Assembly: GCA_963924555.1 (NCBI GenBank) | Contig: OZ004585.1 | Coordinates: 1,749,488 to 1,813,487, forward strand | Origin: Crambe crambe | Taxonomy: Eukaryota > Porifera > Demospongiae > Poecilosclerida > Crambeidae | Length of the DNA stretch: 64,000 nucleotides | Direction: 5' to 3' | In this document: piece after piece, positions 3,132 to 61,450 of the stretch | Layout of the letters: each line of letters opens with the position of its first letter | Numbering within the stretch: the first letter of the stretch is position 1 | Position numbers and translations under genes: made by a program | The notes under the pieces: generated by a model | Seen by the model: the letters and a program-made list of their open reading frames with translations, nothing else | Database searches by the model: none | What the model was told of the DNA's origin: nothing

Positions 3132-3533
3132 ATCAAATACATTTATACATGAGGGTGAAAGGTCATCATTATCATCAGTGTGGAGCTTGCTTCACTCACC
3201 CTAATGAAAGTGCATACGTATAGCTATCATTCTAATACATGGATAAACAAAACACAACCATATGATGTACTCTAGGCCATTGTACTCTTTCATGCATGAA
3301 CCAGAATGCATTCTATGCAGTGTATGCATAACATAGCTGATAGTTGCTACATGGTCAATTGGCTGAGTGGGTAATACCCTCATTGCCAAATCAATAACAC
3401 ATTTAGAAACAGTCATTGATTTTATATTGAGTCATCAAGAGATGTGTATTGAATGAAAGAAGCCTTTACATCTCTAAGTAGTAGCTCAAATAGGATAGCA
3501 TTGTCAAAATCATCTTAGCATCTATGAAGAATT

Positions 3534-5615
3534 TAACGAGCTCCACTCTTCTTCTGGTCTCCCATCAAGTTATGCTCCAAGTTGGAACAGCAAGGATGCA
3601 GAAAGGACCAAAGATGACCCTACTGCAGACCAGCAGGAACTCCAGAAATTACTGATTGACGGAATCTTCAAGAATGAAAGTAACATAGCTGTGATAAGGA
3701 AGACCTTTAGACCAAACACCGACAAGATCTGTATCCCGATTTCTTATGAAGTTAATTACAGAACAAATGGAACTTCTAATGATACTCATTGCAGTGATAT
3801 AACCACTCCTTTATTCTACTGGACTCGTTATGACCCTAATGGAAAATTAATGAAGATTATAGCCATCTTGGCATCAACATCATCACTAATATTACCAGTA
3901 CCTGGCTTTGACTGGAATAGTGTCTGTGACACAAATACCTGGTCCAATAATCCTGATACAACTCTCAACATAGATCTGTATACTGCATGGAGGATGATAA
4001 GTCAGGCGTTGGGTACAATCACAACCATGGTAAGTAGTGAGTCCAAAAAATTATCAAAGGTTGGCTGTACTGTATGGGGAAATTTTTATCACAACTTCGT
4101 GGATTGAAACTTTCACTATTCATATAAAAACTTTCACTGTTTATATAATGAAACATTCAATTATATTACAGATGATTTGGGACAATTATGTTATCCATCA
4201 TTGAATTCTTACCTTCAACAGCACACAAGAATTAGATAACTGAATGTTCAATTTCACTTGCAGATGCCCATATATGGTCAACACAATGGGATGCCGCCAT
4301 CCAGGATATGACAGTTGGATATGCTACTCATGATAATGAAGGACTACCTCTAGACTTCATGGTGAATTTAGCATTATATAATATTCATCGCCCTAATCAC
4401 CATAGCCATTGGCAATACAGTATTCATTACCATACAAGAAGCTATCAAACCAAGTGAAGTAAAGAAACCAAAACTGTACTATCACTATTGGTCTGCAGTG
4501 GTACTCACCATAGCAACTATGTGCGTTATATTCATTGACAAGTTTGAACTAATCTATATTAATAGCATTGCGGTTCCACTTCTACTTGCACTTGGTATTG
4601 TGTGCGTGAAAGATTCAAAAACATTGACCGTACCACTGACGATATTAATTCCAACAAACCCATGCAAGTTCATATGGACTTATATAGTAACCATCATTGG
4701 GTTGTCATCTACACTAACATTCATCAGCTATCTCATCTATGCCTTGCCAACGATAATCTTCATGTACCATCTTCATCCGATTCGAACACTTATTAAAATC
4801 CCTTTCGTCATTGGAGCTATATCAATTACCGTTGCACTGGGATCAGTGGTTTACACCAGTTGGAGAAAGTCATTGTCCTGTATGTGGTCATGGGATGCAA
4901 GAAATTAAACCACTGCTCATCTGTTCTGCACACCCCTGAATGTAAACAACCGCTGAATCATTGTTGCATACATTTTCGTTCCAACTATAACAACGTCATC
5001 AAACAAATCACGTTGGAAAAACAGTACGACATTAAATATTATGAAAAGCCTATCGTTGAAGATTTTAAACTGTGTGGCCACAAATCAAACAGTATTTTTG
5101 TTTTTTTGATCAACTTTATACAATTGCTTGCTTCAGTCATGGCACTAGTCATTATTGTCTATGGAGTATTGGCTCTGGCAGATATTGTGTTTCAAGAGTC
5201 AAGTAACATAGATGCAACTATTAATAATGTCCTATTGGCTCTGATACCAACTGTTGCTGTTTATGCTGGAGCGTGGTTAGGGAAAGGAGTAATCTTTGAT
5301 TTAAAAGAAGACTTGAAGGAATTGAAGTTACGTGGTCAAAACAAAGAAAGTGAACAGGAAAAGTTGATTAAAGCTCTGAATGGTTTGTCAGAACAGATTA
5401 AGAGGATCATGAAGCATGAAGGAAAAGAAGAGTCAGGTGAAGACGTTGAGAGAGGAGGAGGAGGAGGAGGAAGAGGAGGAGGAGGAGGAGGGGAAAGAGG
5501 GGAGGAAGGAGAAGAAGGAGAGGAAAGAGGAAGGAGAGAAGACAGCAACACAATGGTGGACCCTGCACATGTACCCCTGCTAGAAATCCATCCAGCTCAA
5601 CAGAACTTGAAATAA
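3534..5615 (+). pseudogene. broken copy of the multi-pass membrane protein family
   Basis: This is a degenerate paralogue of the intact genes at 22972-25171 and 26614-28748, closest to the latter. The same two-exon layout is visible: exon 1 from ATG at 3534 to a GTAAGT donor at about 4030, acceptor CACTTGCAG before 4264, and stop at 5615. It is broken in several places. Relative to the 26614 copy, 19 bases are missing inside the signal peptide, bases are missing near 3980, there are further shifts near 4300-4390, and one base is missing near 4853. The C-terminal part (4860-5615) still reads as transmembrane segments followed by a tail rich in Gly, Glu and Arg. It is almost certainly not translated as a full protein. 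Confidence 0.85.
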
Positions 5616-6420
5616 TTCAAACACTTATGGCTACGTGATTACAAGACCAAGTGTTAATAACAAGTACATATTATGTGTCTATTGTTGTGGTAGTGTCAAT
5701 TTTGCTTAAATTATGATTTATACTGCATTCCCCTTGCCCCCCTGATCATATTGTCCCCCTGATCATTCCCCTTGCCCCCCTGATCATTCCCCTTACCCCC
5801 TGATCATTCATTATTACTGCTATAACTTTTTCAATTCTTAACTAAATTTCAAATTTCAACACCAGCTGATAGAGTGGATAATCAGCTCTCTGTTGATGCA
5901 TTAAACTATACATTTGGTTAAGAATTGAGAAAGTAATAGCAGTTAAAGTGAATAATCAAGGGGGTATTTTGAATGCAAATGTGATAGTCGAGGGTAGAAA
6001 TCAAATGCTACTCATATTTAGTCGAAGTTTGTCATGACTGATGCTTTACTGTCACAAATAGAAGCTCTTCTGGATGTAAGATTGTTGTACATTGATAACT
6101 TTTGTTATTGCTAGAACTCCATTACACATGAGCAATCAAAATATTGATATTGAAGTTGATGCTTTGACGAAGAGCTCTCCTCACCAACCCTGCAATGATA
6201 GGTACTCAAGACGCCATAATATTGACTCAAGATGGTGATCATATTGACACAACATTACCAAACATGCAATGTTTGTTTATATACATGCACACAGGGAGAA
6301 TCCACATTCTTACCATATAAATAAGCCCTTACTACAGCAATCTATAGCACATTTCAATTTTTACAAGAATAAGTGTGTACATTTTAGCTGTGTGACCATT
6401 TAACAGCACAAGGTAAGACT
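5616..6420. other. intergenic, no gene seen
   Basis: It contains a short degenerate tandem of a CCCCTGATCATTCCCCTTGC-like unit at about 5728-5815. The rest is AT-rich and resembles 28750-29160, because both follow a membrane-family copy in the duplicated block. No gene is visible. Confidence 0.5.
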
Positions 6421-6984: not shown

Positions 6985-7331
6985 GTCTGGGACAATGAAG
7001 ACTAAACTAGTGCCTTAGTAGGATCATGTCTTAGTCAAATTGTTCGCAAAAAAACAACGAAAAACCAAACAGGAAAAAAAAACAAAAAAAAAACCAAACA
7101 AAAAAAAATTCAAAAAAATTAAGAAAAAAATTTAAATAAAAAAAAAATTAAAAAATTAAATAAATAAAAATTCCCCCTCTTGTACAGCTACAGCATTGGT
7201 AGTAAGAGGTTTTACAGTACATTTTAGATGCATCAAGTGTACTGTATGTGACTGCACTGGTGGTGGTGGTGGGTGGGGCCAGTGCTATGTCACACTGACG
7301 AGTCCCAATAAGGACGAAACAGTACAAACTT
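6985..7331 (+). mobile_element. hammerhead-ribozyme repeat, copy A
   Basis: The repeat has three parts: a head containing ACTAGTGCCTTAGTAGGATC, flanked by the short inverted pair GACTAA / TTAGTC; an A-rich linker at about 7047-7170; and a body beginning CCCCCTCTTGTA that ends in a hammerhead ribozyme. The same order occurs at 17046-17323, 19945-20417, 21555-21790 and 29795-30089, and truncated at 36340-36487. The A-rich middle and lack of coding frame suggest a SINE-like or other non-autonomous retroelement, but no target duplication was established. Confidence 0.75.
7235..7331 (+). ncRNA. hammerhead ribozyme, type III, intact core (copy A)
   Basis: Reading 5' to 3': stem III strand GTACTGT (7239-7245), cleavage nucleotide A7246, stem I TGTGAC (7247-7252) paired with GTCACA (7289-7294), core CTGACGA (7295-7301), stem II GTCC/GGAC closed by a six-base loop (7302-7315), core GAAA (7316-7319), and the stem III partner ACAGTAC (7319-7325). 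Stem I continues beyond a small internal loop as CACTGG/CCAGTG, closed by a GGT-rich loop. Stem III extends with AAGT/ACTT. All core nucleotides of the hammerhead consensus (CUGANGA, GAAA, UH) are present. Predicted cleavage is after A7246. Confidence 0.9.
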
Positions 7332-8360
7332 AAAGTCAAAAATTGAAGCTCTTAATTAACTTTATTGCAAAAATAATCATAGAGCATGCATAATACACAG
7401 GCAATGTGTTCACTTAGTATTTGCTACAGTCACCAGACAAGTAAAGTTTGGTCTACTGCTACAAATACTTCATTAAAAGTGATTGACAGCTACTGTTATA
7501 TCAATTACACCTCCAGTAATTAAACTGGTAAAACTCCCCACCTCAGAAGTTGTCATCATTGTTTTGATTTTCTTACGGCAGTTGCAATGATCACTCCATT
7601 GTGAAAGAATATCAAAGCAAGTGACACTGTTATTTCATTAAGTCACTTAATTACGTTCAAGCATTCTAAACCTTGCCTAGCTAATCTCATAGAGAAGACA
7701 ATTCATTTTTATTACCTTAACTGCCATTTCTCATAATGTTTCAATGTTCAAAAGCCTTGCCTAATAGCTACAAACTGACACCAAGTTACCTTTTCATTTC
7801 TCAATAATATTTTGATGAATAATTTCTAAATTGAAACCCCTCCTCCCTTTCGTTCCTAAGCCAGGCCTCTAGCTAAAATGGTGCAATCTATAGAGTGCCA
7901 TAGAAATTTTGACCATGCCTAGTTTGCTTATAGCCGTACACATTTTTACTTGGACAACTCGTGCTTCTGTTCCAAGCTGAAAGTAGAAATGGTACGTGTA
8001 TTCAGAAGAACATCATTAGGGCTCGTAGCTAATCATGTAGGAGCTTATGTGATTATTACATGCCTATGTGTGCGCCTTTTGTTCTTAATAATAAGTTGAT
8101 GATTCAGTCTGTCCTATTGGTTGTGCTTGAAAGTACAGTGTAATGCAGATGTGTGTAGTAATAAGTTGATGATTCAGTCTGTCCTATTGGTTGTGCTTGA
8201 AAGTACAGTGCAATGCAGATGTGTGTAGTAATAAGTTGATGATTCAGTCTGTCCTATTGGTTGTGTTTGAAAGTACAGTGCAATGCAGATGTGTGTAGTA
8301 ATAAGTTGATGATTCAGTCTGTCCTATTGGTTGTGCTTGAAAGTACAATGCAATGTAGAT
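7332..8360. repeat. segment duplicated at 30090-30900 and 36490-37330
   Basis: The sequence following the ribozyme (starting near AAAGTCAAAA) is shared by all three loci with small indels and no open frame. At 30090 and 36490 it leads into PH-domain gene copies; here it ends in a 70-base tandem array instead. This indicates segmental duplication of a block that includes the ribozyme repeat. Confidence 0.75.
8089..8360. repeat. 70-base tandem repeat, about four copies
   Basis: The marker GATTCAGTCTGTCCTATTGG recurs at 8101, 8171, 8241 and 8311, exactly 70 bases apart, with only a few substitutions between units. The last unit is incomplete. A two-unit version is present in the duplicated segment at about 37200-37335. 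Confidence 0.95.

Positions 8361-10689: not shown

Positions 10690-61450
<50,761 letters not shown>

Follow-up and report, generated by a model that had tools for sequence, protein, structure and literature searches.

What a hammerhead ribozyme does within a gene cluster of a sponge, and whether it belongs to a repeat spread through the genome, are the questions raised by this locus. The window, i.e. the whole stretch of 64,000 nucleotides analysed here (C8:1,749,488-1,813,487, + strand), is part of a genome of 143 Mb in 119 contigs, and an earlier note had described in it an intact type III hammerhead in a dispersed repeat. The ribozyme is one of 13 copies, named A to M; the one first noted is copy I, and copies J, K, L and M also lie in the window. 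Copy I is a complete type III hammerhead motif, for which self-cleavage is predicted. On balance, it seems probable that these are locally amplified, extended type III hammerheads within an animal module, which would cut plus-strand transcripts and act in 3′-end processing or turnover near gene 3′ ends.

Anatomy of copy I and its recognition by covariance models

In copy I, stem III is formed by TGTACTG plus T (7238-7245) with A plus CAGTACA (7319-7326), giving 8 pairs with U16.1-A15.1 included, and the first segment of stem I by 6 pairs (7247-7252 with 7289-7294). A 1x3 internal loop (T7253 versus TAT 7286-7288) separates this segment from the distal part of the stem (Table 1). The core boxes CTGACGA (7295-7301) and GAAA (7316-7319) are intact, and stem II has 4 pairs (7302-7305 with 7312-7315). 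Sequence and fold agree on type III topology, with stem III open and stems I and II closed. As the cleavage triplet is GTA 7244-7246 (GUA in RNA), the cut is predicted between 7246 and 7247. The type III arrangement, intact core, stem lengths and U-A cleavage site had all been recognised in the earlier note, and sequence, fold and motif descriptor bear them out. The small internal loop that it had placed in stem I is likewise there, six pairs from the core, and loop II is the same in all copies, a placement that would suit a contact between stems I and II.

The type III hammerhead is the minimum free energy fold of 7230-7334, the stability of which is not unusual (z -1.20; 22 of 200 shuffles as stable). 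A motif descriptor was applied to both strands, specifying minimum lengths of 5 pairs for stem III, 5 for stem I and 4 for stem II, perfect or G.U, together with the core boxes and a cleavable triplet. On the surrounding 183 kb it retrieved 8 copies, two of them among the five in the window, and nothing in 60 dinucleotide shuffles. This strict descriptor is passed by 8 of the 13 copies and failed by A, B, J, K and M.

Table 1. Features of the window discussed in the text (SL, conserved 63-base element).
Feature	Position	Strand	Remarks
SL upstream of copy I	6994..7056	+	84.6 bits (model R2)
A-rich tract between SL and ribozyme, copy I	7047..7172	+	73% A in 100 bases from 14 bases after SL 16-base core
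Upstream hairpin CCTCTT...AAGAGG	7176..7209	+	by eye in alignment; altered in A, B, D
Possible competing hairpin	7213..7246 (arms 7213-7224, 7235-7246)	+	inverted repeat; arm 13 bases before ribozyme
Type III hammerhead ribozyme, copy I	7238..7326	+	sequence, fold, descriptor; predicted cut 7246/7247
Distal stem I and apical GGU-repeat loop	7254..7285	+	7 pairs, 7254-7260/7279-7285; loop 7261-7278
Loop II CAATAA	7306..7311	+	all 6 columns invariant across the 11 distinct sequences
SL upstream of copy J	17045..17107	+	first bases overlap stop codon 17054-17056 of 130-aa frame
Hammerhead copy J	17233..17318	+	core intact; first stem II pair A.C
Three tandem SL upstream of copy K	19953-20015, 20068-20130, 20192-20254	+	model R2
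Hammerhead copy K	20324..20418	+	expected dead: GUG at cleavage site, stem III mismatch
Core-less relic	21714..21790	+	stem III 5′ strand and stem I; SL at 21558-21620
Intact 466-aa membrane-protein frame	27348..28748	+	1.2 kb upstream of copy L
Hammerhead copy L	29990..30084	+	intact; SL at 29797-29859
Hammerhead copy M	36402..36487	+	expected dead: A in place of G12; lacks an SL upstream

A covariance-model match, which the earlier note had put forward as a check, did not materialise: no Rfam family reached its gathering score on the window, and RF00008, run with permissive settings, gave copy I 22.1 bits, versus a cut-off of 48.5. The RF00008 alignment pairs GCTATGTC (from 7284, in distal stem I) with the 3′ strand, and not TGTACTG 46 bases further upstream, because helix I, with 13 pairs and a loop of 18 bases in copy I, is apparently longer than the model allows. 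Genome-wide (68 scored of 20,730 candidates), the best RF00008 match is copy C at 24.1 bits, and all five matches at E ≤10 are copies of the cluster ribozyme. Our own covariance model, R1, assigns 113.6 bits to copy I, which is among its training sequences. The Rfam type III model can thus miss long-arm hammerheads.

Weak matches to RF00163 in the genome number 36 (73 scored of 15,610 candidates), and three of these are copies E, I and L. Ten others that were examined (L014-L023) share the core CTGAAGA-GCTC-CAAATA-GAGC-GAAACAGTC (e.g. C15:2617178-2617217) and score 21-28 bits with R1. A GACTGTH partner for stem III is absent within 500 bases of the core in all ten. The two for which frames are listed (L015, L017) have the hammerhead-like stretch within open frames of at least 135 codons, which suggests that it is coding. 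These sequences were consequently rejected as ribozymes or as a dispersed ancestor of the cluster copies; they form a repeated hammerhead-like sequence, a false positive worth knowing for genome scans.

Copies, shared upstream element and conservation

Thirteen places in the 143 Mb match the core CTGACGANTCCCAATAAGGACGAAA at up to 3 mismatches, all of them in forward orientation within C8:1,659,262-1,785,943 (127 kb), and a reversed-core control pattern matches none. The repeat is therefore not the dispersed one that the earlier note had assumed, and forms a single one-strand cluster. A DNA search with 141 bases returned 16 places, all on the + strand of this cluster, namely the 13 copies and three relics in which the 5′ part of stem III and stem I survive but the catalytic core is lost. 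Successive copies lie 2.1 kb (C-D) to 29.7 kb (D-E) apart. The exact core pattern is absent from the prokaryote and virus contig collections, a weak test for an animal sequence, and the hammerhead has no match in phage records. The animal origin of the DNA, also given earlier, is confirmed by fourteen Wnt exon matches over cut-off in the genome. The mitochondrial contig C119 (19.5 kb) carries a COX1 readable with TGA as tryptophan and matches to COX2, ATP6 and ATP synthase subunit C; the genes and 22 tRNAs found on it are all on one strand. Cnidarian mitochondria keep at most two tRNAs, and we take genetic code table 4, the nearly full tRNA set and atp9 to suggest a demosponge.

A second conserved element, of 63 bases (SL), accompanies the ribozymes. 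Its 16-base core CCTTGGTAGGATCATR was found with at most 1 mismatch at 23 genome places, 20 of them in the cluster and all of these on the + strand; the 3 outside are single-mismatch places, versus 2 for the reversed control, and so at chance level. With up to 3 mismatches, the 183 kb yield the same 20 and no others, and these are also the 20 retrieved at 57.8 bits or more by model R2, built from 16 SLs, the next score being 13.7. The SL lies 153-760 bases upstream (core to core) of 12 of the 13 ribozymes, M being without one; D, G and H have two each, K has three, and each of the three relics has one. In 15 of 20 cases, at least 50% of the 100 bases after the SL are A, versus 1.4% of all windows of the sequence. 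Four of the five exceptions adjoin ribozymes D, G, H and K, and A-rich DNA (50-64%) precedes them; the fifth (C) has 47%.

Rfam gives only a chance-level match to the SL, on the opposite strand of the stretch. The idea of the SL as a stem-loop was dropped, with 0 pairs changed on both sides and 83.6% of cells paired; since pair counts give no support, only conservation of sequence is claimed. A peptide TK(L/V/F/Y)VPW followed by a stop can be read in several copies, yet coding alone cannot explain the SL, because conservation runs on past the stop.

The 13 ribozymes comprise 11 distinct sequences (B = A, E = I), with core and cleavage triplet intact in 11 copies. Within the core boxes, variation is confined to N7 (C or T), a core position free to vary, and to G12 (A in M); at the cleavage position, only K deviates, with a G. 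Copies K and M are for these reasons expected to be dead. Five of 50 stem columns vary, and two of these make up one compensatory C-G to U-A change (stem I, A/B). Further deviations are a 2-base bulge in stem I (A/B) and a mismatch at the distal stem end (D), and the internal loop of stem I reads U versus UAU, UAC or UGC across copies. One pair changed on both sides is equalled by 37 of 500 shuffles; covariation is not judgeable, because the copies are too alike.

In three non-overlapping pairs, the ribozyme changes more slowly than its homologous flanks: 2/89 versus 85/532 differences for E-L (approx. 2% versus 16%; one-sided p 0.0001), 2/95 versus 67/574 for G-H (one-sided p 0.0013) and 3/90 versus 53/547 for C-F (approx. 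3% versus 10%; one-sided p 0.029), flank differences being inflated by badly aligning A-rich DNA and pairs having been picked after the copies were seen. Comparison with the downstream flank only gave 5/89 versus 38/287 for A-H (p 0.031), and no significant difference for L-M, which includes the dead core of M (3/86 versus 17/258, p 0.22).

From 13 near-identical copies on one strand, mostly downstream of an SL, we infer that the cluster is transcribed and that self-cleavage processes its transcripts, with a use in 3′-end processing or turnover. The full module, read on one strand, would consist of the 63-base element, usually an A-rich tract, a small hairpin and the ribozyme. A plus-strand transcript, either read-through from upstream genes or a non-coding RNA of the module itself, would reach the module, and the ribozyme would fold and cut at the predicted site, as other hammerheads with the same core do. 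Of the two products, the upstream RNA would retain both the 63-base element and the A-rich tract, with a 2′,3′-cyclic phosphate at its end, and the downstream RNA would start with a 5′-OH. Processing or turnover of plus-strand transcripts of the cluster near gene 3′ ends would be the most likely role.

The main rival is a passive, locally duplicated relic, i.e. a small mobile or tandem-duplicated hammerhead sequence spread by local segmental duplication and gene conversion, which may cut in vitro and have no use in the animal. We regard this as possible, if doubtful. Several pairs are indeed plain segmental duplicates (E/I, 97% over 4.8 kb; F/J, 94% over 4.7 kb; G/K, 98% over 4.3 kb), and ribozymes are 93-100% alike in the 22 pairs compared; moreover, the dead cores of K and M, the three core-less relics and the broken genes upstream of E, H and I (see below) all fit such an origin. 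Against it, similarity persists in ribozyme and SL even where the intervening and flanking DNA has diverged or is unrelated: L and D share 96% over the ribozyme (-65..+33) and 92% over the SL, and otherwise have no alignment at E 1e-4 except to the second SL of D. The slower change of the ribozyme relative to homologous flanks argues in the same direction, and confinement to one strand of one cluster is atypical for a mobile element.

Competing folds and neighbouring genes

Upstream of the ribozyme lies an arm that could form a competing hairpin (Table 1), the second arm of which holds the stem III 5′ strand and the cleavage site. This raises the prospect of a regulated ribozyme, in which the upstream arm (TACAGTGCA/TACAGTACA) would first hide these sequences until a protein or a condition frees them, a reading we hold to be rather unlikely. 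Eight of the 13 copies (C, E, F, G, I, J, L and M, with gaps of 6, 10 or 16 bases) have an arm complementary at 9/9 positions, and with 45 upstream bases included, the minimum structure lies 0.7-4.1 kcal/mol below the stem III structure in those eight. Complementarity nevertheless falls to 7/9 in A, B and D and to 8/9 in H and K, and shuffled upstream bases often disturb stem III too. Among 100 shuffles of the 45 upstream bases, those at or below the real value numbered 0 for I, 5 for E (which has the same 45 upstream bases as I), 5 for M, 11 for A and B, 15 for F, 26 for J, 31 for D, 38 for C, 55 for H and L, 66 for G and 100 for K. A proven switch was accordingly rejected: only I, E and M stand out, and the shuffles do not support it for most copies. 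A point against the proposed role in processing is that the predicted fold loses stem III in 13 of 13 copies with 150-base flanks; with 10-base flanks, 8 of the 13 form all of stem III, G, H and K form part of it, and A and B none.

Two further features recur in all copies. In each of the 13 copies, stem I is capped by a GGU-repeat loop of 15-25 bases that matches a two-tier G-quadruplex pattern, as do 1% of 20-base windows. The complement of loop II CAATAA, TTATT or TTATTG, occurs within 60 bases downstream of every ribozyme (after 7326 in I), versus 12.6% of windows; it is a lead only, because it reflects about three independent contexts and was seen after the fact.

For 9 of the 13 copies, a frame on the same strand ends 0.2-2.4 kb upstream; these frames belong to several kinds of gene. 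Exons of a nucleoside transporter precede copy A by 2.4 kb and copy B by 1.7 kb; two of those at A match PF01733, one above and one just under cut-off, and those at B are recognised by similarity only. A frame of 128-130 aa lies 0.2 kb upstream of C, F and J, with its stop 7-31 bases before the SL 16-base core; between C and F, its substitutions by codon position are 3, 3 and 11, favouring the third. Copies E, H, I and L are 1.2-1.8 kb downstream of members of a tandem membrane-protein family, and no near upstream gene could be assigned to D, G, K or M. Members of this family were noted at 3499-5615, 22780-25171 and 26569-28748 of the window and at five places in C8:1,702,479-1,745,438; by eye, they have a signal-peptide-like start and several membrane spans, and Pfam gave no confident match.

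Ahead of E, H and I, the frames of the membrane-protein genes are split or contain stops, although the ribozymes themselves are intact; at these places the ribozyme is thus not coupled to a functional gene upstream. Four of the eight membrane-protein genes in the cluster (three with an intact long frame, one split) are not directly followed by a module. Neither ribozyme nor SL lies near the relatives on C5 (48%) and C15 (27%), where the best score is 13.2 bits (E 1.2). The link to functional genes upstream is incomplete, and is therefore counted against a 3′ UTR reading. A more specific proposal goes further: unrelated neighbour genes would share a 3′ cassette in which the SL and the encoded A-rich tract replace the poly(A) tail, and the hammerhead, possibly checked by the hairpin, makes the end. 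We consider this improbable. If true, such a ribozyme-made 3′ end would follow a logic like that of histone 3′ ends, although catalysed by the RNA itself.

Other coding traces were noted in the cluster. Between ribozymes A and B, on the opposite strand (L026:4298-5494, minus), lie broken reverse-transcriptase-like frames with a weak match to RVT_1 (E 0.011), and their FYGLPKVHK stretch recalls Penelope-like elements. The window also contains an exon like ribosomal protein L11 (9959-10270; PF03946, just below cut-off), an exon like the 7TM calcium-dependent channel family (12805-13083, minus; PF02714, below cut-off) and two PH domains that exceed the cut-off (32122-32433 and 38732-39091). At 1407-1599 and 5796-5963, both strands score below cut-off against plant miRNA precursor models, and these are probably inverted repeats.

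Comparison with known hammerhead systems

Metazoan hammerheads are described as mostly type I and located in retroelements (PMC7229834). Type III hammerheads are reported from termite and dipteran genomes and from HDV-like RNAs of toad and termite (PMC7936874), and a discontinuous type III hammerhead from mammalian Clec2 3′ UTRs (PMC6155905). The view of the earlier note that a type III arrangement in an animal repeat would be unusual thus holds insofar as metazoan hammerheads are mostly type I, and has to be qualified by the type III examples published for termites, dipterans and Clec2. Domesticated-looking animal hammerheads are described as few and of unknown use (PMC6155905). Among the matches listed in open-licence literature, none described hammerheads from a sponge genome. 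Animal type III hammerheads are hence not new; the clustered module appears to be.

The Clec2 ribozyme resembles that of the sponge in type III order, enlarged helix I, animal host and position near gene 3′ ends, the last being inferred here. Its helix I is, however, given as 150-1500 nt (PMC6155905), whereas the sponge ribozyme has a continuous arm of 13 pairs containing an internal loop. The sponge ribozyme differs further in following several genes unrelated to one another and in having a 63-base element ahead of it, its UTR position being putative.

The termite, dipteran and HDV-like ribozymes share with it type III topology, a first stem, an internal loop and an extra hairpin on helix I, and are likewise found in animal DNA (termites, flies). 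According to PMC7936874, the termite/dipteran type has a first stem of 5 bp, an internal loop of 6-10 nt with GCCR and a helix II of 6 bp with a YGGC loop (pseudoknot), in contrast to 6 bp, a 1x3 internal loop and a 4-bp helix II with CAAUAA in the sponge. The sponge copies have no counterpart of the pairing between GCCR internal loop and YGGC loop II described for the HDV-like/dipteran type. Termite genomic copies are described in the same paper as isolated, and those of the sponge are 13 and clustered. Plant retrozymes and satellites carry compact type III hammerheads (RF00008; PMC7936874), which have in common with the sponge ribozyme the core, a 4-bp stem II and a first stem I segment of 6 bp. 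Their helix I ends in a loop of 6-8 nt, whereas that of the sponge continues into a further 7 bp and a G-rich loop of 15-25 nt, and the sponge copies score under the RF00008 cut-off.

Clustered hammerheads have also been described flanking genes in prophages (PMC3088659), where several lie close together around different genes. This likeness suggests transcript processing, although the setting there is bacteria and prophages and here a eukaryotic gene cluster. The sponge cluster is a one-strand, cluster-restricted family in an early-branching animal, in which intact, decayed and core-less members occur together with a second conserved element. It thereby offers a natural series for comparing ribozyme loss with transcript ends.

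An origin as a ribozyme retroelement, retrozyme-like or otherwise, that is cut at two hammerheads and circularised is disfavoured and in our estimate very improbable. Hammerheads flank plant retrozymes (PMC4918200, PMC7229834) and lie in tandem repeats in animal ones (PMC7229834), and two modules do lie 2.1-3.1 kb apart in C-D, F-G and J-K. Retrozymes are, however, recognised by two hammerheads hundreds of bases apart or by short tandem repeats, in dispersed positions, whereas here no successive spacing is below 2 kb (smallest, 2.1 kb) and no copies lie outside the 127-kb cluster. Chance resemblance in a repetitive region has next to no credibility: the loose pattern CTGANGA-N8..36-GAAA is common (11 in the window versus 5.9 expected), but the full motif was absent from all 60 shuffles of the 183 kb, and conservation tracks the architecture of the ribozyme.
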